DNA from: Gordonia alkanivorans NBRC 16433
GTDB lineage: Bacteria; Actinomycetota; Actinomycetes; Mycobacteriales; Mycobacteriaceae
Length of the DNA stretch: 64,000 nt
Assembly: GCF_000225505.1 (NCBI RefSeq)
Contig: NZ_BACI01000120.1
Location: forward strand, 1-64,000
Direction: 5' to 3'
In this document: positions 5,853-63,935 of the stretch, piece by piece
Layout: each line of letters begins with the position of its first letter
Position numbering within the stretch: position 1 is the first letter of the stretch
Translations under genes and position numbers: made by a program
The notes under the pieces: model-generated
Seen by the model: the letters and a program-made list of their open reading frames with translations, nothing else
Database searches by the model: none
What the model was told of the DNA's origin: nothing

Positions 5853-5853
5853 G

Positions 5854-13391: not shown

Positions 13392-13553
13392 GTGTGGACC
13401 TCCTGATTGCCAGCCCTCGAACGCTACCCGCCGACACTGACAGGTTCGCCATCGCCAGGAATTCAACGAGACCAAACCGAGTGGCATTGCCAGGCCTTCG
13501 AACGCTTGCTGAGAAGCTGTCGAAGACTTCGCTGAGGTGCCGCCCGACGCCCG

Positions 13554-15212: not shown

Positions 15213-15275
15213 TAGCTCAGAGGCTCCGTCGCCAACGCAGTTTGGTGGCGCCCGCAGTCGGCGAGTGCCTGGAAG

Positions 15276-48915: not shown

Positions 48916-49093
48916 CGCACACTCCTGATCGGCTCACGTCCGAGCCACACTGGCTCGGGACTGAACCGACGTCAGAACCTGTCCGGGTTGTCGACACCGC
49001 GACACACCTGGCGCTCTCGCTCGGACTGATCTCCATGGTCGCAGTGATCGGCGAGACATGCCACGATCGCTCATCGACGATCACCTGGTTCGG

Positions 49094-50626
49094 TCACCAG
49101 ATCGGAACCCGTGGCGCACCCTGGAGCACCGCAGCCAGGTATGGGTCCAGGCTCGCGGCCATCTCGCGCTGCCTTGCCAGCAGGAGCCGTCCGTCACCAT
49201 CGACGAGTGCAGGCGGCGGCGCCATCGGCAGTTCTGCCCTGTCCAGCAGGGTCGCCCCCAGCCCCTGGGCCATGGCAAACGCGATGTCCCCCGAATCGCC
49301 GAACGGATCGGTGGACACTGTCTGTCGCACATCGGTCATGTCGAGGGGAATGTCGAGGTTCAGTGGGCCGGCGTCCGCCTCCGTTGCCACCAGTCCGTGA
49401 ACACCGCCACTGAGTACGGTTTCGATCAGGTCCGCCATGAGCGTCACCGACCCCAACTGGCGGACCATGATGAACGTCCAGGTGATCCGGTGCTCCAACG
49501 ATTCCCGCCATCGAGCCCGACGCCGTGCATCGGCGAACTGGAAGCGTTGGTAGTCGCCTGCGATGAGTGCGGCGACCGCCGTGTCGACGGCTTCTGCGCT
49601 GAGCGTCGCGCGACGGAGTGGATCGATCGAGGCCTCGGTCACCAGCCGCTTGACTCGATTCCACGCGAGGTTGGCCAACTGGTGGTGCATCCCGGCGGCA
49701 GCGAGGCCGTCGCGCGCCGCAGCGAATGCCTCATCTGCGACGGAGAAGTCGTGTCGTGCCAGGGCCGCATTTGCCCTGTTGTACTCGCAGATGGCAACTT
49801 TGTCCGGCTTGCCAGTGGCCTCGAAGAACCGGATCGCCTCGGACAACAGTTCCTCGCCTCTGGCCACGTCGCCGGTGGCCATGAACACTAGTGCCAAACC
49901 CATCCGACTCTCGGTGGCATGCTCCCGGTCACCCTCACGCTCACAGATCTCGATGGCGCGTTCGAATGCCGGCACCGCGAGTTGAGGCCGACCGGACTCC
50001 ACGTAGGTCGCCGCCAGCGACGTGAGACACATCGCTGCTCGTAGGGTCGCGTCACCGAAGAAGTCGACGAGCTCGAGAAACGCCTTTTCCGCTTCTTGCC
50101 GGCGTCCGGACATCCGGTGGTTGTTCGCCAGATTCAGCCGTACTTCCGCAACGTCGTGGACCGTTCCCAGTTCCAGGTAGATCTGCTCGGCGAGTCCGAG
50201 CGCCCGATCCGCGTCGTCGAACTCGCCGACCTGGGTGGACAAGGTGCCGAAGTCGTTGAGCGCACCGGCGAACTTCTCGTGATCTTCGTACTCGGACAGC
50301 TCATCACAAGCCAGCCCCATCGCCTCATGTGCCGTTACGTAGTCGCCCGACCGAAATGCGATGAGACCGATCACCTGGAGGAGTTCGGTGGCAGCTTCGG
50401 GATCGAACTCGGCATACGCATCACGCGCACCGAGAACGGCATCGATGACCTCGTCGGTACCGGCGACGTCTGCCAGATGTTCTGCGAGCTCGACATAGGC
50501 CGCGGCGATCGCACGAGGATCCCCGGCCACGTCCGCCTCGTTTGCGACGGCGTACAACTCAGCGCGAACCCGCTCCCACTCATCGGCATCGAATTCGTCG
50601 CGCTGCTCGTCGCTTCCCGCACTCAT
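49094..50626 (-). CDS. TPR-repeat protein of the CHAT operon
   Basis: This protein of about 510 residues consists of tetratricopeptide-like helical pairs from about residue 20 to 330, for example AAAYVELAEHLADVAGTDE, VGEFDDADRALGLAEQIYLE and ATGDVARGEELLSEAIRFFE. The C-terminal 150 residues are less regular. TPR arrays are protein-docking platforms, and TPR-CHAT pairs are known where the TPR part controls the protease. It is the last of four genes joined by ATGA overlaps; its ATG overlaps the CHAT gene stop and has GAGGGAAG upstream. It may hold the protease inactive or present substrates. That role is inference. Confidence 0.8.
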   Translation of the reverse strand: MSAGSDEQRDEFDADEWERVRAELYAVANEADVAGDPRAIAAAYVELAEHLADVAGTDEVIDAVLGARDAYAEFDPEAATELLQVIGLIAFRSGDYVTAHEAMGLACDELSEYEDHEKFAGALNDFGTLSTQVGEFDDADRALGLAEQIYLELGTVHDVAEVRLNLANNHRMSGRRQEAEKAFLELVDFFGDATLRAAMCLTSLAATYVESGRPQLAVPAFERAIEICEREGDREHATESRMGLALVFMATGDVARGEELLSEAIRFFEATGKPDKVAICEYNRANAALARHDFSVADEAFAAARDGLAAAGMHHQLANLAWNRVKRLVTEASIDPLRRATLSAEAVDTAVAALIAGDYQRFQFADARRRARWRESLEHRITWTFIMVRQLGSVTLMADLIETVLSGGVHGLVATEADAGPLNLDIPLDMTDVRQTVSTDPFGDSGDIAFAMAQGLGATLLDRAELPMAPPPALVDGDGRLLLARQREMAASLDPYLAAVLQGAPRVPIW

Positions 50627-51945
50627 CTGCTTCCCTCCCCGGGCGCCGTGGTGATCTGGCGTCGAGCACAGACATGTGTTCCCACCGAGGCCCATGTCAG
50701 CGGCGAGTTCGCGACCGAGGGCGACGCCCGCCACTGTTCGAGCTTCGATCGTTGCCACGCCGACAACGCCGCGGCCGGATCTGCCGCCATGTGCGTCTCG
50801 TCCACTGCCAGAGCCAGTTCCGTCGTGGGGCACACATCCGAGTCGACGGCCGCGAGATCCGAGAAGGCAACATCGGACGGCAAGGTCCAGCGCGTCGTCG
50901 TCACGATCTCCGCACCTGCGCTGAACATCGCCACCACCAAACCGAAAGTCTCCGAACTCCGATAGTCCACGCCACCCTCGCAGGCGATCACCGCCACTCG
51001 CGGCGGCATCGGCCACAACCGATGGCCGGGGATCCCGTCGCCCACGTGCGGGCTCGCCCCCTCGCCCAGATCCGGTCTCGCGGTGCCCAACAGCAGATCC
51101 AGCGCAGCCAGCGGGCGATGCGCCCCGTGGACGGATTCGGCCAGCCCCCACTGCTTTCCGTCGTCGGTCAGATGAATCGATGCCGAACCCGGCTGATTCA
51201 CCGTCGAGGACACGTGTCCAAAGTAGAACAGGCGGCTCGGTTCAAGACGCAGTTCCTCACTCAAATCCCAGCGGTCGTAGGCCGCTCCGACACCCGAGGC
51301 GCTCGTGTGCGAACGGTTCGCCATCCGATCACGGATCAAGCGGGCCCCGGGTGGCTGCGATCGTCGTGGTCCCGACGAGGACACCATCACCTGCCGGAGT
51401 CCGGAACCTGCGGGCAGCAGCGGATCCACGACATAGAGCACGGGTCGCCTCGAGAGATCGTCGGTCCAGGGGCCGGGGGTCCGGGCCCGTCCGAGATGCA
51501 CTGCTGCAGGAGGCTCGAAGCAGACGTCGGCGAGCTCTATCAAGCGCGTCTCCCCGTCCACGGCCAGCAACTCGAACGGAACCCTGGCCAGCGACCGACT
51601 CGGCGTGATCCGCACCAGAACTCGCCCCACACGGGCCTTCTCGACCAGAGCCGTCGTCACCGCTGCGGGAAGGATCACCCGAGACAGCCCTTCATTCACC
51701 GCGAGCTCACTCTGATAGCGGCTGAACGGTCCGGACAATGCACGGCGTACAGGTTCTTCCGGATCCATGCCGTCGCCACCGATCAGAGCCGCATCGAGGC
51801 GAGCCAGCGCTCGGCGCAACTTCGGGGTCGTCACCACGTGCACGTGAGGATATGCGGGGTCGTCGAGCCACCGGAACGACAGATATGTGCCTCCGGCGTC
51901 GACCGCCCTGATCAGGAGCACCGACGACGGGTCACGCGCGGTCAT
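50623..51945 (-). CDS. CHAT-domain cysteine protease
   Basis: This 440-residue protein's C-terminal half is a caspase-like CHAT domain. The catalytic histidine fits H244 in LFYFGHVSS, and the catalytic cysteine fits C322 in VAVIACEGG; this is followed by the SAGAEIVTTTRW block, which matches the usual CHAT pattern (aGA-V-w). The N-terminal 150 residues form a separate domain with RITPSRSLARVPFELLAVDG, a stretch also common in CHAT proteins. CHAT proteases act in bacterial immune and cell-death systems, cutting a partner when triggered. It overlaps both neighbours by four bases. Confidence 0.85.
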   Translation of the reverse strand: MTARDPSSVLLIRAVDAGGTYLSFRWLDDPAYPHVHVVTTPKLRRALARLDAALIGGDGMDPEEPVRRALSGPFSRYQSELAVNEGLSRVILPAAVTTALVEKARVGRVLVRITPSRSLARVPFELLAVDGETRLIELADVCFEPPAAVHLGRARTPGPWTDDLSRRPVLYVVDPLLPAGSGLRQVMVSSSGPRRSQPPGARLIRDRMANRSHTSASGVGAAYDRWDLSEELRLEPSRLFYFGHVSSTVNQPGSASIHLTDDGKQWGLAESVHGAHRPLAALDLLLGTARPDLGEGASPHVGDGIPGHRLWPMPPRVAVIACEGGVDYRSSETFGLVVAMFSAGAEIVTTTRWTLPSDVAFSDLAAVDSDVCPTTELALAVDETHMAADPAAALSAWQRSKLEQWRASPSVANSPLTWASVGTHVCARRQITTAPGEGSR

Positions 51946-53267
51946 CCGAACCCGATCATGTGGAGTTCGGCAAGCGTGGGTCCGCCGGGCCCGTCGGTCC
52001 GCAACGGTTCGCGGACCCGATCGTCCAGCTTCTCGACTGCCACGAGACGGGCGGCGATCAGCCGGGTCTCGGATTCTCCGCGGTATCGCCTCGCGAACTG
52101 TCGCAGGAGAACTCGCACAGTACCCACGGCATCGGATGCCGCCTGGCGTTCCGTTTCCGCGCCGGCCGTCGCGGCAGCAATCCCGTCGTCAGAGTCGGTG
52201 ATCCCCAGACCTGCGAGGACGGCACCCGCGTTGCGAAGCCGGGTCCATGCGTGCCGGAAATGCCGATCGACCCGGGTCATCGCCACGCCGAAGTGGTCGA
52301 GTCGAAGTTCCGCGGGGTCGGCTTCTGAACCGACGAACGCGAACCGCGCGTCGCCGTCGACTCCGACGATGCGCGCCGTGATCCGGTCGCCGGATGCCGT
52401 CGCCGGCGCAAACGCGACCAGGTCACCCGTCTCGGGGTCCGCAGCGACAGCGAAAATCCCATCCACCACTGCTGAATCCGCATCCACACCGTCACGCAAC
52501 TCCGCACTCACCTCGTACGAACCGTCAACGTTCTCGTTTATCTCGACCTCCGGTTCCTCCGGACCGTCGAACCGCAGCAGTCGAGGCGGTAGCGCACGCA
52601 GGTCCGCGACCTGCGTGATCACCGGGGAAATCCCGCCGAGATCGGCGGCGAGCACACCCAGGTCGGTGTCGAGACCGAACAGCGCATCCCACAGGACATC
52701 TGATCGATCTGTGCGCACACGCAGCGCCCCCAGCAAACCATCCATCTCGTCGTCGGGAAGTACGCCGATGGCCACCGTGCCGATGACCTCGGCGAGTCGC
52801 GTCACCAACGGCCCTCCGTGATCGGCTGATTCGATCTCGTCCACCAGACGACCGGGCACCGAGGATGCCAGTGCCAGGTACCAGCCCATGTCCGGGTCGC
52901 CCAGGAGGGCACGCGCATATGCGACGTCCAGTGACAGAACACCGTCGTCGAGATCGCCCAGGTGCAGCGTGTCGACCGCGGTCACCGTGGTAAGCCGAAC
53001 CAGCCCATCGCTGAGATCCGGAGCAGGGATTCCGGTCGTATCCAGAGCGTTTACGAGATCGTTGACCGCTGACGGGTCGGCGAAAACCGACGCGTCGCGC
53101 GCGGATTCCGCATCCCGGATGGTCACCTGCACGGGCTGCTCGGGAAACGCCGCATCGACGGTGAATGTGATTTGTCCGGTGGTGATCGTGACCGGCAGGA
53201 ACGCCTCGGCGTCGTCGGCGCGCCACGTATAGCTTCCGTCGGGTCCACGCTGCACGGTCCCGCTCAT
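51942..53267 (-). CDS. Unrecognised protein in the CHAT operon (441 aa)
   Basis: This 441-residue acidic soluble protein has repeated beta-strand pairs at the N-terminus (SYTWRADDAEAFLPVTITTG), a central helical part and a C-terminal helical region (TETRLIAARLVAVEKLDDRV). I see no catalytic motif, membrane segment or signal peptide. It is second in the four-gene operon with 4-base overlaps on both sides, so its product is likely made in step with the CHAT protease and may be a partner or substrate. Confidence 0.7.
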   Translation of the reverse strand: MSGTVQRGPDGSYTWRADDAEAFLPVTITTGQITFTVDAAFPEQPVQVTIRDAESARDASVFADPSAVNDLVNALDTTGIPAPDLSDGLVRLTTVTAVDTLHLGDLDDGVLSLDVAYARALLGDPDMGWYLALASSVPGRLVDEIESADHGGPLVTRLAEVIGTVAIGVLPDDEMDGLLGALRVRTDRSDVLWDALFGLDTDLGVLAADLGGISPVITQVADLRALPPRLLRFDGPEEPEVEINENVDGSYEVSAELRDGVDADSAVVDGIFAVAADPETGDLVAFAPATASGDRITARIVGVDGDARFAFVGSEADPAELRLDHFGVAMTRVDRHFRHAWTRLRNAGAVLAGLGITDSDDGIAAATAGAETERQAASDAVGTVRVLLRQFARRYRGESETRLIAARLVAVEKLDDRVREPLRTDGPGGPTLAELHMIGFG

Positions 53268-54595
53268 GAAACCACTCCCGCGTCGAGCGTGTCGGCTAGT
53301 GAACGTCGAGCGCGTCTACCTGCGGTCTCCAGTGTCAGGTACACGTTCATCCCCGCCTTCATCGCCGACTCACTGCGGGCATCTGCCGGCTGCTCCGAGC
53401 GCCAGAGCTGCGCGGCCACCCGTCTCACCTCGCCCGGACTGGCGATGTCGAGCGTGCCGCCGATGGTCAGGAGTGTGATCGCGGTTCTCCCCTCCCAGCA
53501 GAGTTTTCCGTCGATCTGTTGGTCAGGGTCCTCGGCGATGGTCGCCGCGATGACGGCAAGGAGCTCGTTGGCCGCGTCGGCGGCAGGGTCAGGTGTGTTC
53601 TCCACGCGGTCGTCTGCCTGACTGCGGTCCGGGTCGTCGGCCACGATCAGCCGCCTCTCGTGGAGCCGCCGGACTGCGGTGCGGCGCTTCTCGTCGAGCC
53701 GGACGGCATCGAGCCGGAGCTTCAGGTAGTACTCCGTGCCTTCCAGTGGCTTCCCGCGGTGCAGACGGTTCACGTAGGTCGTGACGACGCGTTCGAACGC
53801 TTCGCTCAGACGCGGGTCAGAGCGGTCCTTGCCCTTGACCCGATCTGCGATCACGCGCTCGACGAACGTGATCGCAGTCGTGCGGAGCTCCGCTCGGCGC
53901 TCAGCGGTGAGCGGCTCTTCTGGTTCCGCACCGAAATCGTCCACGACGCGTTCACCGAGTTCTGCGAGAACCGTCGTCTCCTCCTCGGTCAGGATCGTCG
54001 ACCCGGCCGCGCCGGCATCGAGCAACCGCACAATCGCGCTGACGAAACCGTCAAGCGCCACTTTCTCATCCACGCCTGCTCTGCTGATGGGGGTCTCGAC
54101 GAAATTCTGCACGGTGTCGAAGGACTCGTCCACGGACGGCTCAGAACGAACCATGGCACCGCGAACCTTGCGCACAGCCGCGCGCCGGGCCTCCCGCACC
54201 GCGGCACCGATCGACCTCCGAAGACCAGACGGGACCAACGGAGCAAGGCTCGAGTACCAGCCCGCGGAGTAGCAGCTCAGTGGTCCGATCGTGTCCCGGC
54301 AGACTGCCCCGAGTCGGTCGATCGTGTCGAGATCGGCGACCTCGACCCGCCGGCTACACATCAGCAGCGCGACTGACGGCGAGTATCGCTCACCGACCCA
54401 TCGCCTCTTCCCCAGCGCCCCGGACCAGCCGCACAGTTCCCCTTGGAGGGACTTGCTCTCCGGCAGCGGTTCTCGCATCGAACGTTGATACTGCTTCAGG
54501 TACTCATCCCGGCTGACCCCGGACAGCGGAACCACGACGACCACGATGGCGGGTTGTGCTCCTGGAGGGATCAGCGGAGGCACGAGTCGGCTCAC
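53264..54595 (-). CDS. Unrecognised protein, first gene of the CHAT operon
   Basis: This protein has about 443 residues from GTG at 54593-54595, chosen because GAGGAG lies eight bases upstream; the frame is open to 54670. The N-terminal region (AIVVVVVPLSGVSRDEYLK, then VALLMCSRRVEVADLDT) looks like an alternating beta-alpha fold. A basic stretch (REARRAAVRKVRGAMVR) and an all-helical C-terminal half follow. I do not recognise a family. It heads the operon that ends in CHAT and TPR genes and is divergent from a zinc-ribbon gene. Confidence 0.65.
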   Translation of the reverse strand: MSRLVPPLIPPGAQPAIVVVVVPLSGVSRDEYLKQYQRSMREPLPESKSLQGELCGWSGALGKRRWVGERYSPSVALLMCSRRVEVADLDTIDRLGAVCRDTIGPLSCYSAGWYSSLAPLVPSGLRRSIGAAVREARRAAVRKVRGAMVRSEPSVDESFDTVQNFVETPISRAGVDEKVALDGFVSAIVRLLDAGAAGSTILTEEETTVLAELGERVVDDFGAEPEEPLTAERRAELRTTAITFVERVIADRVKGKDRSDPRLSEAFERVVTTYVNRLHRGKPLEGTEYYLKLRLDAVRLDEKRRTAVRRLHERRLIVADDPDRSQADDRVENTPDPAADAANELLAVIAATIAEDPDQQIDGKLCWEGRTAITLLTIGGTLDIASPGEVRRVAAQLWRSEQPADARSESAMKAGMNVYLTLETAGRRARRSLADTLDAGVVS

Positions 54596-54730
54596 GTCAG
54601 ACGCTCCTCTCGCCAATGCGATCACCCGGATGTGCGGCTTGGCGCCCACCGGCAGGTGAACCCCCCACAAACTTATTGGGTCGAACGCCTGAGGTCGATC
54701 TTCATTGTTTTGGGGGAGACCGTTCGGATC

Positions 54731-55024
54731 ATGGCCCGCGTAGTCTTACCCCCGGTGAAGCAACGAGGAGGGACTAGGGCGGACAGGTGCGATCGATGCG
54801 CACGCGTGCTGGTCAAGTGTAACGAATGTTGCGGCGAGGCAGGTGGATACAGCATCGCCGGCCGGCTCACCTGCGTGACCTGTGACAGCACCGGAAGACT
54901 CTGCCCAGTCCACGGGGGACACTGGCACACAACACCCGGCCCGTCTCCGTCGAGTCGCACGGCACAACGGGAGAACATCAGCGACGAAGCAGGTGATCAC
55001 GGTCCACCCACCCGTCGGCCATGA
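54731..55024 (+). CDS. Small zinc-ribbon protein
   Basis: This 97-residue protein is built around cysteine pairs CDRC, CNECC and CVTC and a closing CPVHGGHW, a pattern that would bind two zinc ions. The tail after residue 65 is polar and probably disordered. It starts at ATG 54731 and its last 47 bases overlap the end of the convergent LuxR-type gene. It is divergent from the CHAT operon. A second, different zinc ribbon is encoded at 59142 in the chaperone operon. Role unknown. Confidence 0.6.
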   Translation: MARVVLPPVKQRGGTRADRCDRCARVLVKCNECCGEAGGYSIAGRLTCVTCDSTGRLCPVHGGHWHTTPGPSPSSRTAQRENISDEAGDHGPPTRRP

Positions 55025-55595
55025 GCTCGATCAGCAACTGAGACTTGTTGGCAACCGGACGTCCGACTGCGATGTAGCGGTCGGACACTCTGCGGAGATG
55101 GGTGCGGACGGTGCTCTCCGCGATGAAGTGTCGCGTCGCCGTCTCTCGCACCGTGGCACCGAGGACGTACGTCAGCACCACTTCGCATTCGCGGTCGCTG
55201 AGCTGCACCCGACCCTCATCGCCGGTCACATCTCCGGCGACCTTGTCGAGAACCTGGCGAAGCGTGCCGGCCGCGAACGGGGAATCCGGAAGCTCCACTC
55301 CGTACTCGCGGCCGGGACATACCCCGATTCCGATGATGTGCGCGCGGTCGAATCGTCCCGGCTCCCGCACCCGAGCCAAATGCTTTGCGCTGCGAACGAT
55401 CACGGCTCTGATCCCTTCCGGACAGAAGACCCGGGCACGGTCCAGATCGACGAGCAGGGCACGATGTCCGAGACCGGAGACGAGCGCCATCATCGCGGCA
55501 TCGCCGAAGTCGTGCTCGGCTACCACGGCAACAGGTTGGCGCACAGCCGTTTCACGGATGGAGTCATTGTCGAGGTCGATGGTATCGGTAGTCAT
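54978..55595 (-). CDS. LuxR-type response-regulator-like transcription factor
   Basis: This 205-residue protein has a C-terminal LuxR/GerE helix-turn-helix (LSDRECEVVLTYVLGATVRE, then STVRTHLRRVSDRY) at about 133-195. The N-terminal 120 residues resemble a receiver domain, but the phospho-acceptor pattern is poor, so control by phosphorylation is doubtful. The gene is divergent from another receiver-like gene across 176 bases, which would hold both promoters. It lies between the two minus-strand operons and is a candidate regulator of them. Confidence 0.75.
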   Translation of the reverse strand: MTTDTIDLDNDSIRETAVRQPVAVVAEHDFGDAAMMALVSGLGHRALLVDLDRARVFCPEGIRAVIVRSAKHLARVREPGRFDRAHIIGIGVCPGREYGVELPDSPFAAGTLRQVLDKVAGDVTGDEGRVQLSDRECEVVLTYVLGATVRETATRHFIAESTVRTHLRRVSDRYIAVGRPVANKSQLLIELMADGWVDRDHLLRR

Positions 55596-55771
55596 GAGAG
55601 CTCCTGGGTGACGACAGTCAACGTCTGGTGGTCTGGAACAGGCGATGTCGTCAATACTGGTGGCGCGACCGTGGGGTAGTCAGCCACTACGACGACATCC
55701 TTGGTGTCGATTCGGGTGAATATCGCCCTCGGCGGTGACCGTTAATGCGTAATCACGCATGACAACTGACG

Positions 55772-56521
55772 ATGCGGCATGATGTCGCGGTGACCGGACT
55801 TCGTATTCTCATCGCCTCGCCCCTCGGCCATGTCGTGGCAGATCCGATCAGGAGCACGTTCGAGGGATCGACCGTTGTCGTGGCCCGGAACCACGACGAG
55901 TTCCTCAGCGCGGTCGCCGCTCGTGTCCGATTCGACGTGGTCAGTGCGGACCTCATCTTCAACCACGCGCAACTGGAGTGGACGTTCGATGGACTCGACG
56001 TGATCGAGGGACTTCACCAGGCTGATCGGCTGGCACCGGTCCTCCTCGCCACCCAGGGCCATTCCATGGAGGAGGATCACCTCGCCGAGGCCCGACTCCG
56101 CTCCGATGTCTCCGGGGTGGTGGCCAAGTCGGCCGGCCTCCATACGTTCATCAACTCGCTGCGGACCGTCGCGCTCGGGCAAGCGCTCGCCGAGCAACAC
56201 CCGAAGTCCATGCGTCCTTCGCTATTCGAGCTCTTCGACGGTCGGCGCGGTATAACCGCGGCCCGCATGGCCGGTGCGATCGCGGCAGGAAACGCCGTTG
56301 ACGTCGGCAGCCTCGCCCAAGTTGCACGAGTGTCCAACAACACCGCGAGCAAGCTGGCATCCAACTACGTCGGACCGATGATGCGTGCCCGGCATGAACA
56401 TGACGACCGGTTGCCACTCACGCAGGCCGCCGTGTTCAGATGGTGCGGACTGCATGCCCGCTACATCGTGAGCTGGTGTCGCCGCCACGGTCACAGCGAC
56501 GTCCTCGAGGCTCAGAGGTGA
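55772..56521 (+). CDS. Receiver-like DNA-binding regulator
   Basis: This 249-residue protein's N-terminal half reads as a CheY-like fold: LRILIASPLG, an aspartate in VVSADLIFNH, and a late lysine in SGVVAKSAG. The C-terminal half has a probable helix-turn-helix (VDVGSLAQVARVSNNTASKL). It is divergent from the LuxR-type gene and convergent with the E1-like gene, separated from it by a strong bidirectional terminator. A GTG start at 55790 is possible. No histidine kinase is nearby, so the signal is unclear. Confidence 0.7.
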   Translation: MRHDVAVTGLRILIASPLGHVVADPIRSTFEGSTVVVARNHDEFLSAVAARVRFDVVSADLIFNHAQLEWTFDGLDVIEGLHQADRLAPVLLATQGHSMEEDHLAEARLRSDVSGVVAKSAGLHTFINSLRTVALGQALAEQHPKSMRPSLFELFDGRRGITAARMAGAIAAGNAVDVGSLAQVARVSNNTASKLASNYVGPMMRARHEHDDRLPLTQAAVFRWCGLHARYIVSWCRRHGHSDVLEAQR

Positions 56522-56522
56522 G

Positions 56523-56562
56523 CGGTCGTGTCCCCGTGCACCCCGGCACGGGGACACGACCG
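56523..56562. terminator. Bidirectional terminator between the regulator and the E1-like gene
   Basis: A perfect 17-base stem (arms 56523-56539 and 56546-56562) with a 6-base loop lies in the 46 bases between two convergent stops. Confidence 0.9.
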
Positions 56563-56567
56563 GACCA

Positions 56568-57587
56568 TCAGCACGGCAAGAAATCGCCGACCCTGAGGTA
56601 GGCACGCCCCGACGGGATATCCGCCCCGCACACAATCTGCCGCGCGACGGTCGCGCCCACCGCACCCGCCATGGTTGCGGCGCTGCCCAACTGCGGCCAC
56701 GACGGAATGCTCCTGCAGACCTCCGCCAGCGCCTTGGTCACACGCGGAGACACCTCGGGACCGACAATCGCCGAAGCGACAGCCACCCTGTTCTCCGGAT
56801 CGGACAGTTCCGTTGGACTCATCGTTGTGAGAAACCCTGCCATACCGTGGAACTCGGGGTATGAGGGGTCGACGTCGTAACGCTCGACGTCGACGATGAC
56901 GCCGTCGCCGTCGTCAGTGACCATCACGAGCGGGAGGCCCGCCGATCTCGCGTGACGCCGTATCACCACTTTCATGGCCAAGTCGTCGACCTCTTCGAGG
57001 ACGATGTCCGCTCGTGCCGGTCCGTCCAGTCCAAGGAAGGACGCGACATTGTTCTCGGTGACGCCGTCGTCGAACACCTCGACCGTCACGTACGGATCGA
57101 GCTCCAGCATCCTGCGCCGCGCCAGAGTCGTCTTCGGGACGCCGAGGTCGCAGACCGACCCACTGAGGCGGTTCAGGTTCGTGACACCGAGCGTGTCGGC
57201 GTCGGCGATCCGGAACCGCCGGGCGCCGGTCAGGACGCAGGTGTGCAGCAGTGACGCCCCGACACTCAATCCGGCGACGGCGATCGTCGTACCGGCCCAG
57301 CAGTCCTGTTCGTTCTCGGTGACCAGGACCCTGTTCCGCGCGGTCCGGAGCCGGTGGAAGATCTCGTCGTCGGGCAACCGCACCATGACGTTCCTCCACG
57401 GGTACACGACATATCGGCTGCGTTCCTCGAGATCGGCGGGGGTCAGGCGCTCCATCCGTGGATCCAGCGACTGAAGCGAGCAGTACTCCTCGAACGCGGT
57501 CTCCCAACCATCGACCACGCCGACACCGACGGTACGCAGCTCCCCGATGCGCGACTCGTCCTTCTCCGGGTGCAGGATCTCGATCAT
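56568..57587 (-). CDS. E1/ThiF-like adenylyltransferase
   Basis: This 339-residue protein's nucleotide-binding core starts at TIAVAGLSVGASLLH (101-115). The acidic strand and loop DADTLGVTNLNR follow (129-140), and then K152 in GVPKTTLARRR, all matching ThiF/MoeB/E1 enzymes that adenylate a carboxyl end of a protein or peptide. An N-terminal region of 95 residues (YPWRNVMVRLPDDEIFHRLR) resembles other peptide-modifying ThiF proteins. The last residue is a cysteine (FLPC). The ATG overlaps the ligase stop by four bases. Partners could be the 46-residue zinc-ribbon protein or a metabolite; neither is shown. Confidence 0.85.
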   Translation of the reverse strand: MIEILHPEKDESRIGELRTVGVGVVDGWETAFEEYCSLQSLDPRMERLTPADLEERSRYVVYPWRNVMVRLPDDEIFHRLRTARNRVLVTENEQDCWAGTTIAVAGLSVGASLLHTCVLTGARRFRIADADTLGVTNLNRLSGSVCDLGVPKTTLARRRMLELDPYVTVEVFDDGVTENNVASFLGLDGPARADIVLEEVDDLAMKVVIRRHARSAGLPLVMVTDDGDGVIVDVERYDVDPSYPEFHGMAGFLTTMSPTELSDPENRVAVASAIVGPEVSPRVTKALAEVCRSIPSWPQLGSAATMAGAVGATVARQIVCGADIPSGRAYLRVGDFLPC

Positions 57588-59014
57588 TTCACCTCTCCGG
57601 TGTACTTGTGCTTCGGCCCGACACGGAACAACCCGGTCCCGTGTGGGTGGAGGGTGACCCGAGGCGCCGTGCGATCGGCACCGCGCTGTGCGTGCAGGGC
57701 CCGATACTCGTCGTTGGTGCGCAACAGCGTGTTCTGGCACAGCACCGTCAGGTCGTCGACGAGACCGGGCGGCGCCGTGTGAACACCGGCGGCGAGCTCG
57801 ACAGCGACACGCAACACAGGACGGTGGTCCCCGCCCGGACTCCCGTCCGCGCGGAACCTGCCCGTCACCAGCCGCGCCACGGCGGGAGAATCGAATGCCG
57901 GCGCCAGTTGGGACGGGTAGATGTTGGACGAGTAGAACGTCGTCGACACATCCGGGCGACCGGTCAGGACGACAAAACAACCCTCGGGATCGACTCGGTC
58001 CGCGAGCCCGTCATGACCGTGCGCGACCAGGATCTGGCGTAGCCGTGCGCCGGTGAGGACGTCGCCCTTGTCGTTGATCCGGTAACGGATCAACGGGAGA
58101 GCACCGTCGATGGTGAACAGAAGGTATCCCTCGCCGTCGACTTCGGCGTACCGGCGCGCTGGGTCGACCTCGACGAATGTGGGCAGGGTCGTCGCCTGCG
58201 GGAACAGCTCAGCACGAAGAGCGAGGTCGGCGCGCGCCGCGCGCCGGACCGAAACCGTCACGGGCGACTCGTGTCCCATAACGCCCACCTCGGCCGTTCC
58301 ATAGATGAGGCACACCCGCTCCGGGCGGTCGCTTCGCCCGATTCGCTCAAGCAGATGGTCGCGCCACTCCTCGGTGACGCCCTCACCGGCCAGCAGAATG
58401 GAGATGTCCTGCGCGAGAGCAGCATCGGCCATCTGGTCGAGGACGTCCTTGACCAGCGGCGGATATCCCGCGACGACGACCTTCTCGTACTGCGGCCCCA
58501 ACTCTTTGATGTTGGTGGCGGCCGCTGCGACATCGATTCCCGGCGTCGTCACCGAAACCCGGTAGCCACGACGATGAAGCCCGTCTCCCGCTTGGTGACT
58601 GTAGGTGCCACCGATCCAGGTGCCCATCGCGAAGCAGACCACGAGAAGGACGGAGCGCTCGCCGACCTCGAAGCAGTCGTCGAAGATCTGTCCGTAGAAG
58701 TGGATCGCGTCGTTGATGGCAGCCGGATCGCGGGGAAAGAATGTCGGCTGGCCCGTCGAGCCCGACGTCGACGACCACGTGTCCGCACGAGCGATGTCGC
58801 CGTCCCACATCAGTTGCGGAATCTCGTGCCGCCTGAGATAACCCTTCTTGGTCGTGACTGGCAGCGCCACGAACTCAGCGGGGGTGATGGCGCCACTGTG
58901 CGTATAGCCGCACTCGCGCGCGTGAGTCCCGTACGCCGGAACCCGGTGTAGTGCGTCGCTCGCGACGGCCATGGCGTGGTCGAGTCCGACTGCGGATGTT
59001 GTGAGTGGGTGCAT
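57584..59014 (-). CDS. PaaK-like AMP-forming ligase
   Basis: This 476-residue ANL-superfamily enzyme of the phenylacetate-CoA ligase branch has its ATP-binding P-loop as SSTSGSTGQP (81-90), followed by the adenine/substrate motif IYGTAEVGVMGHE and the ribose-binding segment LIRYRINDKGDV. The C-terminal lid is short and ends GPKHKYTGEVK, which includes a lysine where the catalytic one is expected. It should activate a carboxylic acid as an adenylate. The ATG at 59012-59014 is fixed by AGGAGG. The gene follows a strong hairpin and is coupled to the E1-like gene. Confidence 0.85.
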   Translation of the reverse strand: MHPLTTSAVGLDHAMAVASDALHRVPAYGTHARECGYTHSGAITPAEFVALPVTTKKGYLRRHEIPQLMWDGDIARADTWSSTSGSTGQPTFFPRDPAAINDAIHFYGQIFDDCFEVGERSVLLVVCFAMGTWIGGTYSHQAGDGLHRRGYRVSVTTPGIDVAAAATNIKELGPQYEKVVVAGYPPLVKDVLDQMADAALAQDISILLAGEGVTEEWRDHLLERIGRSDRPERVCLIYGTAEVGVMGHESPVTVSVRRAARADLALRAELFPQATTLPTFVEVDPARRYAEVDGEGYLLFTIDGALPLIRYRINDKGDVLTGARLRQILVAHGHDGLADRVDPEGCFVVLTGRPDVSTTFYSSNIYPSQLAPAFDSPAVARLVTGRFRADGSPGGDHRPVLRVAVELAAGVHTAPPGLVDDLTVLCQNTLLRTNDEYRALHAQRGADRTAPRVTLHPHGTGLFRVGPKHKYTGEVK

Positions 59015-59097
59015 GTTTGCCTCCTGGTCGTGGTGACCTGGAAGCCGTTTCCCCACCCGTTTCGATCGGCGCCGGCGCATCCGGCAGGTTGAAAGAC

Positions 59098-59130
59098 GAC
59101 GGTGCCGGCAGGGTTCCTGCCGGCACCGTC
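59098..59130 (-). terminator. Hairpin between the small zinc-ribbon gene and the ligase gene (terminator or attenuator)
   Basis: A perfect 15-base stem (59098-59112 with 59116-59130) with a 3-base loop lies 11 bases after the small-gene stop on the minus strand and is followed by GTCTTTC. Because the downstream genes run in the same direction, partial read-through would make the small protein in excess of the ligase and E1-like enzyme. Confidence 0.8.
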
Positions 59131-59141
59131 GAGAACTCGGA

Positions 59142-59282
59142 TCAGTTGTCAGACTTGCAATGTGGGCACGTCACGGTGACCCGGTTCCACGAGGACTTTC
59201 CCCAGAACGCACGGTTGCAGACGCGGCACTTGTGCGGCTCGGTGTAGTCTCCGCTTCGTCGCGCCGAAGCTGTTTCAGCCAT
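59142..59282 (-). CDS. 46-residue zinc-ribbon protein
   Basis: This short gene starts at ATG 59280-59282 with a near-ideal AAAGGAG six bases upstream. Its product has 46 residues, with CRVC and CPHC pairs either side of a Trp-rich turn (NRAFWGKSSWNRVTVT) and a C-terminus ending KSDN. The four cysteines would bind one zinc. It stands between the GrpE-like and ligase genes and is followed by a hairpin. It may be the target of the neighbouring adenylating enzymes or a small DNA/RNA or protein adaptor. The ribosome-binding site, zinc pattern and operon position make it a confident gene despite its size. Confidence 0.82.
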   Translation of the reverse strand: MAETASARRSGDYTEPHKCRVCNRAFWGKSSWNRVTVTCPHCKSDN

Positions 59283-59342
59283 TTCTCACTCCTTTCGCAT
59301 GAGTCGTTACTCTGTGACTCGGGACGGTCCGCCCGATTCCTG

Positions 59343-60179
59343 TCAGTCGTCGCCCGCCGGCGGATCGTCGGCGCGCGACCATTCGGCCGCGACCTCCGCC
59401 GGCCGGATCACGTATCCCGACAGTTCGTAGCCGCGCCGCATACGTTCGACGATGAGCAGCGACTCATCCGAACTGACACGTTTCGCAACGCTCTTCACCA
59501 CCCGATGTCTGGCCTTGTCGACCTCGGTTCCGGGTTCGCAGTCGATCGGCTCGACCCCGAAATCCTCGAGCATGTCCAATAGTTCGTCGACAAGGCTGGC
59601 CGTGAGCGCCCAGGGGTCCGCCTGCCGTCGGGCATCCTCGAGCTCGACACGGTCGATCAGTGACGCGACCTGGCGGGCGATCGGACGAATGACCGCCTGC
59701 GTGATGCCCGTCTCGGCCGCCACCGCGCGGTCACGCAGTGCGATCAAGGACTGCTCGTAGTTGCGTTCGACGATCCCCGAACCCGCCTTGACCGCCGCTT
59801 CCAACTGGTCGAACCGGAGATGGATTTCGCTGAGGTCAACGTCGACGTCACCCCTGGGCCGCTCACCTGAGTCGACAGGTCCCGAAGACGCCTGGGACGC
59901 TCCTCCTACGGCCCGGGTCGGCACCGGTTCGCTCTGCCTGTACGCGTGCCTACCTTCGTGTTCATCCTCTCGCGAGTCCGCGTGAACCGGCTCATCCAGA
60001 CTGCCCCTCGGAGGTGCCGGATTCCGTCTCGATCGGCGCGAACCCGATCCTTCCTCTACCGAATCCTGCTGCGGAAGAGTCATTCTGGGTCCATAGTCCG
60101 GGTAGACAGGTGTGCCCGAACCTCCGTGCGATGCAGGTCCTGTCTCCCCGTCCGGGTATCCATGCCTCGAATCGGTCAT
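59343..60179 (-). CDS. GrpE-like nucleotide exchange factor with long disordered N-terminus
   Basis: In this 278-residue protein the first 110 residues are polar and low-complexity. A helical coiled-coil stretch follows (VDLSEIHLRFDQLEAAVKAG, then RNYEQSLIALRDRAVAAETG), then a small beta domain ending GYELSGYVIRPAEVAAEW, which matches the GrpE C-terminal RPAxV end. It overlaps the Hsp70 stop by four bases (ATGA). It should release ADP from the Hsp70 upstream. It is much diverged from housekeeping GrpE and is probably dedicated to this system. Confidence 0.8.
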   Translation of the reverse strand: MTDSRHGYPDGETGPASHGGSGTPVYPDYGPRMTLPQQDSVEEGSGSRRSRRNPAPPRGSLDEPVHADSREDEHEGRHAYRQSEPVPTRAVGGASQASSGPVDSGERPRGDVDVDLSEIHLRFDQLEAAVKAGSGIVERNYEQSLIALRDRAVAAETGITQAVIRPIARQVASLIDRVELEDARRQADPWALTASLVDELLDMLEDFGVEPIDCEPGTEVDKARHRVVKSVAKRVSSDESLLIVERMRRGYELSGYVIRPAEVAAEWSRADDPPAGDD

Positions 60180-61684
60180 TGGACCACGATCTCTTTGCCC
60201 TGCTTGCGAAGCGCCTGCACCTCCGCGCTGTCCAGGTTCGCCGACCTCCGCACTTGCATCTGGCCGATCAACCTGCCGCTCACCGCATCATGGAGCTCCG
60301 CCTCGACGGTCTGGTTCTCTCCGATAACGAACACCACTCGCAGAGGCGCCTTGGCGGGAAGGTCGTAGTCCAGTTCCAGCAGAGACTCCCCTAGCACCTT
60401 CACGTACTGCAGCTCGGCACCGTTCTCGTCACCCTCCGTGATCTGGAAGTTGATCTGCCGTGTCACGCCGACCGTGGAGAACGAACTCGCCTCGACCCTG
60501 TTCGGCACCCGCGTATTCGGTTCGACGACCAAACTGTTCAACATCTTCGACCCGTCGTCCGCCAGGACCGCGACACCGAGCCCCTGAGCGACGACGTCGG
60601 AGACATTCGCCCTGACTACCGGGCGGGTACCGTTCTCGACAGCGCTTCGCAGTTCTGCCACGATCGCGGCGCCGAGCGCAACCGCTTCGTCCGGATGCAC
60701 GCTCTTGTCGGCGTCGATCCCCGTCCACTCCTTGACCGACCGCTCGATGATCTTCATTCGTGTGGAACCGCCGACGAGAAGGAGCTTGTCGACGTCGGAA
60801 TACGACACACCGGCTTGCTCCATCACATCTTCGAGGATGTACCTGGTTCGCGTCACCAGGTCTGACACAGCTCGTTCGAACTCATCGCGCATGATCGTGA
60901 TGGACTCTGTTCCGATCCTGATCTTGGCCTTGTCACTGTTCGACAAACGATGCTTGGCTGCCTCTGCCTGCTCACGGATCAGGGCCTGCTGCTCATCGTC
61001 ATCCGGATTGATCGAACCACCGAGCGCACGGTATCGATCCTCAGCCAGCTTGATGAGTTCGTTGTCGAAATCAAAGCCCCCGAGATTTCGGTCGCCGGCT
61101 GACGCCAGCACAGCGAAGTTGTTGTTGGAGATGTCCATCAGGGTGACATCAAACGTGCCTCCGCCGAGGTCGTAGACGAGGACCTTTCCGTTGTATCCAG
61201 CCTTCAAGCCGAAGCTGAGCGCCGCGGCTGTCGGCTCATTGATCACCTGGAGCACGTTGAGGCCGGCAATTTCGCCGGCGTGCCTCGTTGCGGTCCGTTC
61301 AGCGTCGCCGAAGTACGCCGGCACCGTGATGACCACGTCTTCGACCTTCTCGGCGAGGTAGACGGAGGCATCGTCTACCAGGAACCTGAGGATGAAGGAC
61401 GAGATGATCTCCGGTCCAAACGCTTCCCCAGCCCCTTCGGGAGCGAACGTGTAGTCCGGGTTGCCCATGAACCGCTTCACATAGCGCACCACATTCCGGG
61501 GCAGCGACTTCTCTGCGTTCTTCGCTTGCTTACCGACTGTGACCTCGCCGTCGTCGAACAACACCGCTGATGGTGTGGTGTTGTCACCCTCGCGGTTGTG
61601 AATTATGACCGGCAGTCCGTCGTCACCGAGAACTGCAACCGCGGAGTTCGTGGTTCCGAGGTCGATTCCGATCACCTTCCGCAT
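60176..61684 (-). CDS. Short Hsp70/DnaK-family ATPase without lid
   Basis: This 502-residue protein has a complete Hsp70 nucleotide-binding domain: phosphate-1 loop IGIDLGTTNSAVAV, phosphate-2 VYDLGGGTFDVTLM and adenosine motif LLVGGSTRMKIIE. The substrate-binding part is shortened to a beta domain ending near residue 502 (ALRKQGKEIVVQ), with no alpha-helical lid and no EEVD-like tail; housekeeping DnaK has about 610-640 residues. The linker region is also altered (NVSDVVAQGLGVAV). The ATG overlaps the J-protein stop by one base (TGATG). It is probably a specialised sensor or regulator. Confidence 0.92.
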   Translation of the reverse strand: MRKVIGIDLGTTNSAVAVLGDDGLPVIIHNREGDNTTPSAVLFDDGEVTVGKQAKNAEKSLPRNVVRYVKRFMGNPDYTFAPEGAGEAFGPEIISSFILRFLVDDASVYLAEKVEDVVITVPAYFGDAERTATRHAGEIAGLNVLQVINEPTAAALSFGLKAGYNGKVLVYDLGGGTFDVTLMDISNNNFAVLASAGDRNLGGFDFDNELIKLAEDRYRALGGSINPDDDEQQALIREQAEAAKHRLSNSDKAKIRIGTESITIMRDEFERAVSDLVTRTRYILEDVMEQAGVSYSDVDKLLLVGGSTRMKIIERSVKEWTGIDADKSVHPDEAVALGAAIVAELRSAVENGTRPVVRANVSDVVAQGLGVAVLADDGSKMLNSLVVEPNTRVPNRVEASSFSTVGVTRQINFQITEGDENGAELQYVKVLGESLLELDYDLPAKAPLRVVFVIGENQTVEAELHDAVSGRLIGQMQVRRSANLDSAEVQALRKQGKEIVVQ

Positions 61685-62817
61685 CAGAGTCGTCCGATCA
61701 TGAGAGCCAACGAATTCCGCCGCTTCGACGCCTTCCACCGCGGTACATACGACTGCCAGATGATGAGGCCGAGAACGACCAACGAACCGAGAATGAACAG
61801 CGCTCCGATCCCGCCCGACACACTGGAGATGAAAATTCCGAGCAGGAAGGCACCGATCACACCGCCGAACCACATGAACGGCGCATCCGATACCGGTCCC
61901 GGCAGGGACCACACCATATCGGTCTGTTTGTTCAGGTACTCCAACATGTACGCAGCCTGCTTCTGGACGTCCTCATCCATACTCAACTGCTGCGCTTCCG
62001 ATACAAGGGCGATCATCGGCTGAATCTCCGCCTGTTCTGTTACCGCGTAGCTTCCGTCGCCCTGCAACTTCGGAATCGTCTCTGCCTTTTCGAGCAAGGC
62101 GAATGCCAGGTAGTACCGGACAGGCTGTGCATCCGGGTGGTTGCCGAACACTCGGCGATACATGTCGATTGCCTCGTCCAGCAGGCTGTTCTGCTGCAAG
62201 ACCGAACCCTGGGCAAGCGGATAGACGAAGCTCTGCGGGTCGAGCTGGGTCGCGACCTGGTACTCCTTGAGGGCAGAGACCCAATCCTTCAGCTGCTCAT
62301 GCACGTTGCCGAGGTTGAAGTGGTACTCGGCGCTGTTCATCTCGATCTCAGTTGCCTGACGTGCTTCGTACAACGCGTCCTGCACACGACCAAGACCCAG
62401 ATTCGCGCGAGATCGCAGACTCCACGATTCCGCGTTACCGCCGAGAACAGTTGTCGCTTCCTTCGCAGCATACGCTGCCGAGTGATAATCGTTGTTGGCC
62501 AACGCTTCACGAGCAAGTGCGACCCAGTCCAGCTCGCCACCGGCCCGGGCGCCCTGTGGCGACGGAACCGTTGACGGCAGCACGCCCTGCTGTAGGGACC
62601 GGTCGTACGCGGCGCGTTTCTCGGGACCTGTCAGCAGCGCCTCACGTGCTTCACGCAACCGCTTCATCTTCGTCTCGGCCTCGTGTCGCACGTCGATGTT
62701 CGGTGACGAGACACGCTTGGTCCATTGTCGGGTCGCGCGCTTCGATGCCTGTTCGATGTCCTCTTCGCTTGCGTTTCGCTGAACGCCCAGCAGTTCGTAG
62801 TAGTCAACTTCAACCAT
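61684..62817 (-). CDS. Membrane-anchored J-like protein with TPR region; HPD motif missing
   Basis: This 377-residue protein has a J domain at about 5-72 (DYYELLGVQRNASEEDIE, closing EKRAAYDRSL). The loop that should contain His-Pro-Asp reads RQWTKRVSSPN instead. TPR-like helices follow (WSLRSRANLGLGRVQDALYE, YHFNLGNVHEQLKDWVSALK) over roughly 110-240, and then two close hydrophobic segments in the last 60 residues (FGGVIGAFLLGIFISSVSGG and ALFILGSLVVLGLIIWQ). The HPD triad is needed to trigger Hsp70 ATPase, so this protein may tether rather than stimulate its partner. The ATG at 62815-62817 has CAGGAG upstream. Confidence 0.87.
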   Translation of the reverse strand: MVEVDYYELLGVQRNASEEDIEQASKRATRQWTKRVSSPNIDVRHEAETKMKRLREAREALLTGPEKRAAYDRSLQQGVLPSTVPSPQGARAGGELDWVALAREALANNDYHSAAYAAKEATTVLGGNAESWSLRSRANLGLGRVQDALYEARQATEIEMNSAEYHFNLGNVHEQLKDWVSALKEYQVATQLDPQSFVYPLAQGSVLQQNSLLDEAIDMYRRVFGNHPDAQPVRYYLAFALLEKAETIPKLQGDGSYAVTEQAEIQPMIALVSEAQQLSMDEDVQKQAAYMLEYLNKQTDMVWSLPGPVSDAPFMWFGGVIGAFLLGIFISSVSGGIGALFILGSLVVLGLIIWQSYVPRWKASKRRNSLALMIGRL

Positions 62818-63243
62818 GGCAGACCGCTCCTGTTTCTCGGGATGCTCGTAGAGGCCTATCCGCGCCCTCGGAACTGGAGACCAGGCGTGAATCGAGATCG
62901 GCCGTGAGCGTGAAGGTAGCAGCAGGCGCACTCCGGAGAGAGTCGTCAGTTCTGACGAATCCGACAGCGTCTCGAAGGATCCATCTGATTGACGGACACC
63001 ATCCGGCGCAGCGTCCGAGCACCGAAATCACCTGCAGTACAGACAGATCTTCGGTCTCGGTCCGGATCTCGAACAGCATGGTCCGATCGGACGACCCGTT
63101 CCGCCTGTCGCACGATGTCCCTGCTGCCAAGCGGAACGACTGTCGCACAAAAGGATGAAATTCATCGTTTGCCGCTTGATCTGAGTGCTTCGCAATGCAG
63201 ATCCCGCTGCGCAGAACTACTCTCGCAAGCACGCCACCGAATC
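62818..63243. promoter_or_regulatory. Divergent intergenic region upstream of the chaperone operon
   Basis: About 425 bases lie between the J-protein gene and the plus-strand genes at the right edge. The frames present have poor protein character. The region should hold the main promoter of the leftward chaperone-ligase-E1 operon. I could not identify promoter boxes with confidence. Confidence 0.4.
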
Positions 63244-63573
63244 ATGCTGGGAGGTTTGGAATGTCTGAGACCCTCTCCACGACATCAAGCCAAACGAATC
63301 TTCACCAGCCAACGAATCGACCTCACCCTGCTCCAGGATGACCTTCCAGCGATCGATCCCACTCGCGTGGTGCTCCTAGATGCGCCCGAGCACCAGGACA
63401 CACGCATGCGCGCGCAGTGTGTAGGTCTTCTGATGGCCCACGCAGGCGACTACCCCGTGAATCTCCACAACCGACGGATGGCGCTCGCCGCGGCGAAGTT
63501 CGTCGTGGACGACGCCGTCAAGCAGACCACCAACACGGCATACCTGACCTTTCGTGGAGGTGGTGGTGCATGA
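63244..63573 (+). CDS. Hypothetical protein, start uncertain
   Basis: The reliable part of this frame is its second half, LLDAPEHQDTRMRAQCVGLL and NLHNRRMALAAAKFVVDDAV, which reads as a compact helical protein. About 109 residues run from ATG 63244, which has no good ribosome-binding site. A strong GGGAGG lies just before another ATG (63261) in a different frame that would make only 26 residues (MSETLSTTSSQTN...). Either there are two overlapping small genes or one gene with a frameshift near 63300. The stop overlaps the next ATG (ATGA). Family unknown. Confidence 0.45.
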   Translation: MLGGLECLRPSPRHQAKRIFTSQRIDLTLLQDDLPAIDPTRVVLLDAPEHQDTRMRAQCVGLLMAHAGDYPVNLHNRRMALAAAKFVVDDAVKQTTNTAYLTFRGGGGA

Positions 63574-63935
63574 CCACGATGTGTGGCTGGGTAGCCCTCC
63601 CTTCAGGTGAGCGTGGTCAGCGACGCCACTTGGTGGACAGCCTCCAAGGCATCACCGGAGCCACCTTCGGGAATGTCCGGCTGGACGTGACAATCGACGA
63701 GCGGACCGTCCCTCAAGTAGATCTTGTTGACCGCGAGAGGTCTATACCGCCTACCTGGATCAGGGCGAGTGGTTCATCTTGCTTGACGGATGAGCCGCTC
63801 GACCGTCTGCGCCCGATGGTCGCTTCACCTGGTCCGAGGAAGCGACTCGTCAATCGGCGGTGCCTGGTCCTCGACGCTCACCCTGCACAAGACATCAACG
63901 AACCGCAGCACCATTTCCGCAGTTCATCCGCATGA
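63570..63935 (+). pseudogene. Hypothetical small gene, possibly frameshifted near 63738
   Basis: The frame opens at ATG 63570, coupled to the gene before by ATGA, and encodes MTTMCGWVALPSGERGQRR followed by a plausible sequence up to VPQVDLVDRE. Beyond about 63738 the composition worsens. In the next frame the bases read VYTAYLDQGEWFILLDG and then a stop at 63791-63793, which looks like a true protein end. Dropping two bases (an AG repeat in CGAGAGG) would join the two into one protein of about 73 residues. This could be a real frameshift or a sequencing error. Confidence 0.4.

Follow-up and report, generated by a model that had tools for sequence, protein, structure and literature searches.

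In Craspase, the TPR-CHAT protease (Csx29) of type III-E CRISPR, TPR and CHAT are fused in a single protein, and a Cas7-11 (gRAMP) gene lies nearby. Protease-centered and modular as well are the VMAP/EACC1-type ternary conflict systems, which are common in actinobacteria. Here we describe a locus of the soil actinomycete Gordonia alkanivorans NBRC 16433 that shares features with known systems and differs from each of them. It lies within a 64-kb window, the first 64,000 positions of a contig of 220,850 bases in a genome of 5.07 Mb. The twelve genes of the locus, here termed A to L, encode a CHAT protease with a separate TPR protein and two proteins of uncharacterized families, a ligase and a ThiF-type enzyme, two regulators, a zinc-ribbon protein and a trio of chaperone-like proteins. 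We tentatively favor the reading that this is a mobile stress or conflict module built on a TPR-gated CHAT protease and joined to a Ter-locus regulator pair and to an acyl-activating and cyclizing enzyme pair, with the chaperones as optional neighbors. CHAT protease modules are a known kind of system, and the combination is new; we found no publication on the cluster in a literature search whose coverage excluded preprints and most subscription papers.

The protease module consists of four minus-strand genes with a 4-base overlap between each neighboring pair: gene I (53264-54670; 468 amino acids), gene J (51942-53267; 441 amino acids), the CHAT protease gene K (50623-51945; 440 amino acids, dyad H244/C322) and the TPR protein gene L (49094-50626; 510 amino acids, Pfam TPR_12 6e-16). 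As in Craspase, TPR repeats and a caspase-like CHAT protease with a His/Cys dyad are encoded together with further proteins. In contrast to Craspase, TPR and CHAT are separate open reading frames (ORFs); L is putatively the TPR part of a TPR-CHAT protease in split form. The window copy of K alone remains below the Pfam threshold (19.6 versus a cut-off of 24 bits), and PF12770 (CHAT) is matched at E ≤ 0.1 by all seven Gordonia alignment rows, the window's included, with a best value of 5e-14. Across 31 ORFs, a set that counts one genome twice (L036 and L059), the catalytic Cys is present in all and the His in 30, the exception being L081, where the His position is not aligned. A profile built from the Gordonia copies of gene L reaches the TPR proteins at CHAT loci in other genera. 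Screens of all twelve genes against Pfam, and of ten (F and H excepted) against NCBIfam and PADLOC, identified no Cas effector (CRISPR arrays were not searched); the only Cas-related match in the insert is that of the helix-turn-helix of gene G to a CARF3 model (0.0098). In PADLOC, none of I, J, CHAT and TPR has a match at E ≤ 0.1. The four-gene core also differs from the VMAP/EACC1-type systems in that Pfam identifies no NTPase in it. The terms CHAT, ThiF, PaaK and adenylat are absent from the main text of Kaur et al. 2020 (PMC7159879).

Genes I and J have no significant Pfam, NCBIfam or PADLOC family. An AlphaFold2 model of J (predicted local distance difference test, pLDDT, 83; predicted template modeling score, pTM, 0.84) comprises a small beta domain, helices, a beta sandwich and C-terminal helices, and that of I (pLDDT 80, pTM 0.59) is all-helical. 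Neither predicted structure has a clear structural match in the PDB, and profiles of I and J matched no solved structure at E < 0.1.

The closest described counterparts of the enzyme pair are the TrzAS, TyzACB and OxzAB acyl-oxazolone pathways. TrzS of M. smegmatis is reported to have cyclase activity on N-acyl tryptophan, for which Asp217 of the ATP site is required (PMC12856293). Gene E (56568-57587, minus strand) encodes a ThiF/E1-type enzyme of the TrzS (Rv1355c) family, a homologue of the cyclase half without the oxidase domain. It matches NF005901 (2.9e-84) over profile positions 21-337 of 722, the ThiF half, with a total score under the family cut-off, and over 295 amino acids it shares 38% identity with the N-terminal half of another protein encoded in this genome, 701 codons long. 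The latter is presumably TrzS, its oxidase half not having been scanned, and gene E stops where the ThiF half of that protein ends. The ThiF motifs GLSVG, NLNR, K and DD are invariant in nine of nine sequences. Gene D (57584-59080, start probably 59014; minus strand) encodes a PaaK-like adenylate-forming ligase (NF045666 4e-5, below the cut-off). The window copy carries the motifs TSGSTG and YGTAE and is among the 4 of 17 homologous stretches that match the strict pattern TSGSTGxP and among the 5 of 17 that match YG[ST][AT]E; the ligase motifs thus vary. In comparison to the oxazolone pathways, the insert has a stand-alone cyclase homologue with no flavin oxidase, fused or adjacent, and a PaaK-like ligase in place of an N-acyltransferase, and the pair sits with a protease. 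Neither a nitroreductase nor an acyltransferase family was found among the insert genes by Pfam and NCBIfam. Unlike E1/E2-type ubiquitin-like defense systems, the insert encodes its E1 without an E2, JAB or ubiquitin-like neighbor (Pfam, insert genes), and gene E gives only weak E1-E2 matches in PADLOC, the best at 1e-5.

Between the enzyme pair and the protease module lie two divergent regulators. Gene F (55772-56521, plus strand) encodes an atypical receiver-like regulator (Response_reg 0.005, below the cut-off) and gene G (54978-55595, minus strand) a LuxR-type regulator (GerE 1.5e-6) with a paralogue at contig positions 75,129-75,731. Among 59 Gordonia genomes, relatives of the receiver are present in 43 and the Ter PRTase in 34, and the two genes lie at most 15 kb apart in 25 of the 30 genomes having both, which makes the regulators look like those of Ter loci. 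Judged by sequence, the ThiF-type cyclase homologue, the ligase and the divergent atypical regulators form a linked module, the regulators of which have their relatives usually at Ter loci. A further divergent pair of receiver and LuxR genes, with 60% and 41% identity to those of the insert, occupies the distal end of the Ter biosynthetic module (L003:12021-12848 and 13129-13731; contig 74,021-75,731). A perfect palindrome, TGCGTAATCACGCA, lies just upstream of gene F (55746-55759, plus strand) and is a likely operator. It is the sole site with 0 mismatches in the window and recurs at 0-2 mismatches beside many, not all, receiver relatives, beside one extra LuxR gene in G161 and, with 1-2 mismatches, at unrelated places. 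We rejected an operator common to all operons, as in the window the palindrome precedes none of the genes for I, ligase and DnaJ. Gene H (54731-55024, plus strand; 97 amino acids, start uncertain) encodes a zinc-ribbon protein without a Pfam match, whose cysteine pairs are common to five loci, namely the window and the homologues at L037, L059, L063 and L065.

As judged from alignments, the locus is a composite segment inserted into the chromosome at a variable site next to a Ter stress locus. Its left neighbor is acn (aconitase, 46906-48915) and its right neighbor TerD (contig position 64,070), followed by TerC/DUF475, AIM24, C-C lyase, PRTase-TRSP and StiP-PELOTA. In four close relatives (G191, G117, G207 and G164), TerD comes immediately after acn; a fifth genome, G185, was left out of this comparison, its stretch stopping short of TerD. 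Homology to the four (blastn) ends at 49,044-49,070 and restarts at 63,916-63,917, with flanks 90-96% identical, so that a segment of ~14.9 kb (49045..63915) replaces ~50-80 bp of the empty site. Although adjacent to the actinobacterial Ter locus (TerD, TerC, PRTase-TRSP, StiP-PELOTA, C-C lyase) and equipped with regulators of the same receiver/LuxR family, the insert is distinct from it: the Ter genes lie outside the insertion and are present without it in these relatives. Besides the twelve genes, the insert includes ~1.1 kb on their right-hand side. Pfam identified no integrase or transposase among the twelve genes; the extra ~1.1 kb was covered by visual inspection and a check for two genes. 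Because the whole interval is one ~14.9 kb insertion lacking in four relatives, the grouping of its genes is not a matter of chance. The composite may have arisen by one insertion event or by several stacked events, both of which fit. The DnaK and DnaJ-like genes have a guanine-cytosine (GC) content of 59-60%, the other ten genes 64-67%.

A first-pass annotation of the window had described two minus-strand operons flanking divergent LuxR-type and receiver-like genes and a zinc-ribbon gene, with no mobile or core gene between them, and had proposed that chaperone, adenylation and protease modules are co-inherited as one system. The described genes are all present, ten of them on the minus strand if the LuxR gene is counted (ORFs, Pfam, NCBIfam); the regulators and the zinc ribbon, conserved at four other loci, are real, and no mobile or core gene separates the operons. 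The adenylation module exists in the form of two enzymes, a PaaK-like AMP ligase with a weak profile match and a ThiF/E1-type enzyme. Of the proposed co-inheritance, the part that concerns the protease operon, the regulator pair and the adenylation pair holds, as these co-occur and sit on a single insertion; membership of the chaperone trio is not supported.

We scored co-occurrence across the 59 Gordonia genomes, this genome included, using Fisher tests that ignore relatedness. CHAT is present in 11 genomes at E ≤ 1e-4, seven of which form a strong set at ≥49% identity; gene J in eight, one of them weak and dropped from the counts; the ligase in 12, one of them (G104) split over two frames and kept; and ThiF in 32, with a strong set of 11 at ≥56% identity. 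In the strong sets, CHAT and J coincide in seven of seven genomes (p=2.9e-9), and all seven CHAT genomes have the ligase (p=2.3e-6) and ThiF (p=9.7e-7). The most serious competing explanation, in our view rather unlikely, is that two or more unrelated modules without any common function have merely landed at the same insertion hot spot next to Ter: a protease module derived from a plasmid, a metabolite operon under its own regulators, and the chaperone trio. This would account for the genomes in which ligase, ThiF, receiver and LuxR genes stand upstream of TerD without CHAT (G188, G187 and G104, with a FadD-like gene between, and G171), an arrangement that makes the ligase/ThiF pair look like a module often beside Ter, which the protease module has joined in seven genomes. 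It would also agree with the occurrence of I-J-CHAT-TPR without the ligase on plasmids and with a gene order and orientation that differ among G161, G201, G183 and the window. A shared hot spot does not readily explain that CHAT is accompanied by ligase and ThiF in seven of seven Gordonia genomes although the ligase occurs in only 12 of 59, that the linkage of ligase and I/J recurs, in other gene orders, in Nocardia, G116 and G031, or that G165 and G168 keep the order of the window, TPR-CHAT-J-I-LuxR-receiver-ThiF-ligase.

In the genomes compared, the four-gene module I-J-CHAT-TPR is patchy across Actinomycetota and present on plasmids. A scan of 84,980 named species by two patterns yielded 26 CHAT relatives, which is a lower bound; CHAT was the bait for the majority of the loci retrieved. 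Profiles including these sequences place J at 12 and I at ten of the 26 loci; tblastn with the window sequences only (E ≤ 1e-3) recovers J at the same 12 loci and I at seven. The 12 loci with J are from Gordonia (three), Nocardia (seven, two of which, ended by contig ends, show J only), Mycobacterium (one) and Rhodococcus (one). L067 is without I and J, and L069 is ended by its contig end. The full core of I, J, CHAT and a separate TPR protein occurs in Gordonia, Nocardia, Rhodococcus and Mycobacterium. Outside Gordonia, the ligase is found near I/J in Nocardia and two other genera, adjoining these genes in five Nocardia stretches (L061, L062, L063, L065 and L066), G116 and G031, with ThiF present at L063, L065 and G116. 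Overall, 15 of the 22 I- or J-bearing loci examined share a stretch or contig with a ligase gene, G171, found via the ligase, being one of the 15. Gene I was present in 3 of 161 genomes in a family-level search. Order-wide counts (at least 21/397 for CHAT at E ≤ 1e-60, at least 1/397 for J at E ≤ 1e-15 and at least 2/397 for DnaJ at E ≤ 1e-40) are lower bounds of no evidential weight, because only four candidates per genome were scored.

Twelve weaker CHAT loci (L072-L083, from Williamsia, Tessaracoccus and others) contain no I or J. At several of these, a gene with weak TPR matches adjoins CHAT, its C terminus resembling that of L by eye, and the profile of L reaches only one of these TPR-like genes, weakly. 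L072, L073, L074 and L076-L080, with CHAT relatives adjoining a weakly TPR-like gene, represent a different gene set. L072 also carries genes for a 19 kDa-type lipoprotein, an FMN reductase and a luciferase-like monooxygenase. Two proteins of the locus show 96-99% identity between Williamsia muralis (L072) and the record of Kitasatospora arboriphila (L073), which is perhaps a mislabeled or contaminated assembly.

CHAT relatives were found on nine plasmids. The three examined (L099-L101), all from Rhodococcus, carry I, J, CHAT and TPR; one is conjugative and one mobilizable. Profiles detect J on all three, though single-sequence tblastn with J found no plasmid. A two-pattern scan of viral contigs detected no CHAT relative. 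An NYN nuclease encoded on the three plasmids and at L071 was considered as a partner and rejected, because the same stretches have other genes in common and it is thus probably part of a plasmid backbone. We regard it as improbable that the protease module serves conjugative elements, in transfer control, exclusion or plasmid competition and not in phage defense, with the chromosomal copies as remnants. Such a role would fit its presence on the three plasmids and the conjugation-type (TraG/TrwB-like) ATPase or Tra genes near 7 of 22 loci (G161, G201, G189, L070, L071, L099 and L101). It is at odds with the intact CHAT dyad of the chromosomal copies, with a ligase/ThiF linkage seen only outside plasmids and with tblastn searches that found no such conjugation gene in the window, beside the copies in G165 and G168 or in the seven Nocardia stretches. 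Also against it, one such ATPase gene lies near a CHAT relative without I/J (L081).

By its distribution, the third group of genes is an accessory, separable trio on the minus strand: gene A (61684-62817; DnaJ 2.6e-8, TPR), a DnaJ-like TPR protein with a membrane segment seen by eye; gene B (60176-61684; 502 amino acids, HSP70 1.9e-105 over profile positions 1-516 of 599), a DnaK with a shortened C terminus; and gene C (59343-60179; Pfam GrpE 3.7e-9), a GrpE. The HPD motif is needed in canonical J domains. In contrast to the canonical DnaJ/DnaK/GrpE chaperone, the J domain encoded here lacks HPD, which is absent in seven of seven homologues aligned. The DnaJ-like gene is present in seven of the 59 Gordonia genomes, three with CHAT and four without, and four of the seven CHAT genomes lack it (Fisher p=0.03). 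The first-pass annotation had named, as the result that would speak against a single system, chaperones occurring without the CHAT operon as often as with it; this is the case over the seven genomes (four versus three) and not over the five with close orthologues of at least 67% identity (two versus three). In the other two genomes with both genes, DnaJ and CHAT are ~14 kb (G161) and ~42 kb (G183) apart. The trio is in none of the 26 CHAT stretches from named genomes, the flanks of which extend to at most 10 kb and are in some cases ended by contig ends; that of G. aichiensis (G161) is among the 26, with its trio just outside. In G201, a second and different chaperone operon of fn3 protein, Hsp70 and GrpE genes (L036:1093-6277) is divergent from and adjoins the CHAT operon. 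Its GrpE gene lies ~1.1 kb from gene I; its Hsp70, at a distance of ~2 kb from gene I, belongs to another subfamily and shares ~40% identity with gene B across 353 amino acids. This arrangement would fit a looser link of chaperones to the protease module. We rejected an association of the chaperones with Ter rather than CHAT, DnaJ and the Ter PRTase co-occurring in three of seven genomes (p=0.89). Two uncharacterized genes (L027:6119-7775 and L028:10185-11637) stand beside the trio in G161 and G187 and are absent from the window. One ten-gene conflict or stress system, in which a membrane J/Hsp70 senses, CHAT executes and the adenylation enzymes modify or signal, is consistent with the single insertion, with G161, where all modules and the Ter PRTase lie inside ~36 kb of one contig, with the weak DnaJ-CHAT association and with the G201 operon, but is very unlikely given that DnaJ and CHAT each occur without the other in four genomes and lie 42 kb apart in G183, and given the missing trio in the 26 stretches, the missing HPD motif and the deviating GC content.

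In the reading we favor, TPR protein L would hold and gate the separate CHAT protease K, like the two halves of a TPR-CHAT protease, and I and J, nearly always encoded with CHAT, would provide a sensor and a substrate or effector. Ligase and cyclase would activate and cyclize an acyl or amino-acid substrate to form a small molecule serving as a stress signal or as a license for the response, and regulators F and G would set expression. Upon invasion or damage, the protease would cleave its target, resulting in growth arrest or activation of an effector. Several observations weigh against this reading. I and J have no fold or family pointing to a sensor or effector role; the N-acyltransferase and the flavin oxidase of known oxazolone pathways are both missing from the cluster. 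The palindrome is found, within two mismatches, neither beside the receivers of G165, G168 and G183 nor before the window's own I and ligase operons. The presence of CHAT at most of the fetched loci is by construction, because CHAT served as bait, and G165 and G168, counted separately in Fisher tests blind to relatedness, are near-identical at the locus. Linkage is also incomplete: I and J are only partial in G189; the ligase, ThiF and regulators occur without CHAT in the four genomes named above, in one of which (G171) gene I alone (L095:4834-6117), without J, CHAT and TPR, stands beside the ligase-ThiF-regulators-TerD array; the ligase lacks ThiF in L061, L062 and L066; G031 has I, J, ligase and ThiF with no CHAT within the 20 kb fetched; and no ligase is near CHAT on the plasmids or in L070 and L071. 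A bolder version holds that the locus represents an undescribed class of signal-licensed protease system, in which the activity of a split TPR/CHAT protease would be triggered or licensed by a small molecule, the joint product of an acyl-AMP ligase and a stand-alone ThiF cyclase of the oxazolone type. Two new protein families, I and J, would be the sensor and the cleaved effector of the protease, the Ter-locus regulators would tie the class to general stress, and plasmids would spread its protease half. We consider this version improbable.

Elsewhere in the window, a complete-looking Hma defense system (2511-20082) comprises HmaA (9981-13487), HmaB (5854-8595) and HmaC (2511-5918, with a Swt1-like HEPN domain) beside Tn7-like transposition genes (TniQ, 13554-15212; TniB/TnsC, 16838-17893; TnsB-like, 17893-20082). 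It lies in lower-GC DNA and is possibly Tn7-like cargo. A gene for the replicative helicase DnaB (30212-32464; 750 amino acids), the C-terminal domain of which is in two stretches, probably carries an intein.

In conclusion, I-J-CHAT-TPR and the ligase/ThiF pair constitute a defined gene set for which strains with natural presence, absence and an empty site exist, so that its function is directly testable. The role of acyl-oxazolone-like molecules has been described as a major unresolved question (PMC12856293). Were an oxazolone-type enzyme and a CHAT protease functionally linked, this would provide a physiological role for acyl-oxazolone-like molecules and an example of a bacterial caspase-like protease under small-molecule control.

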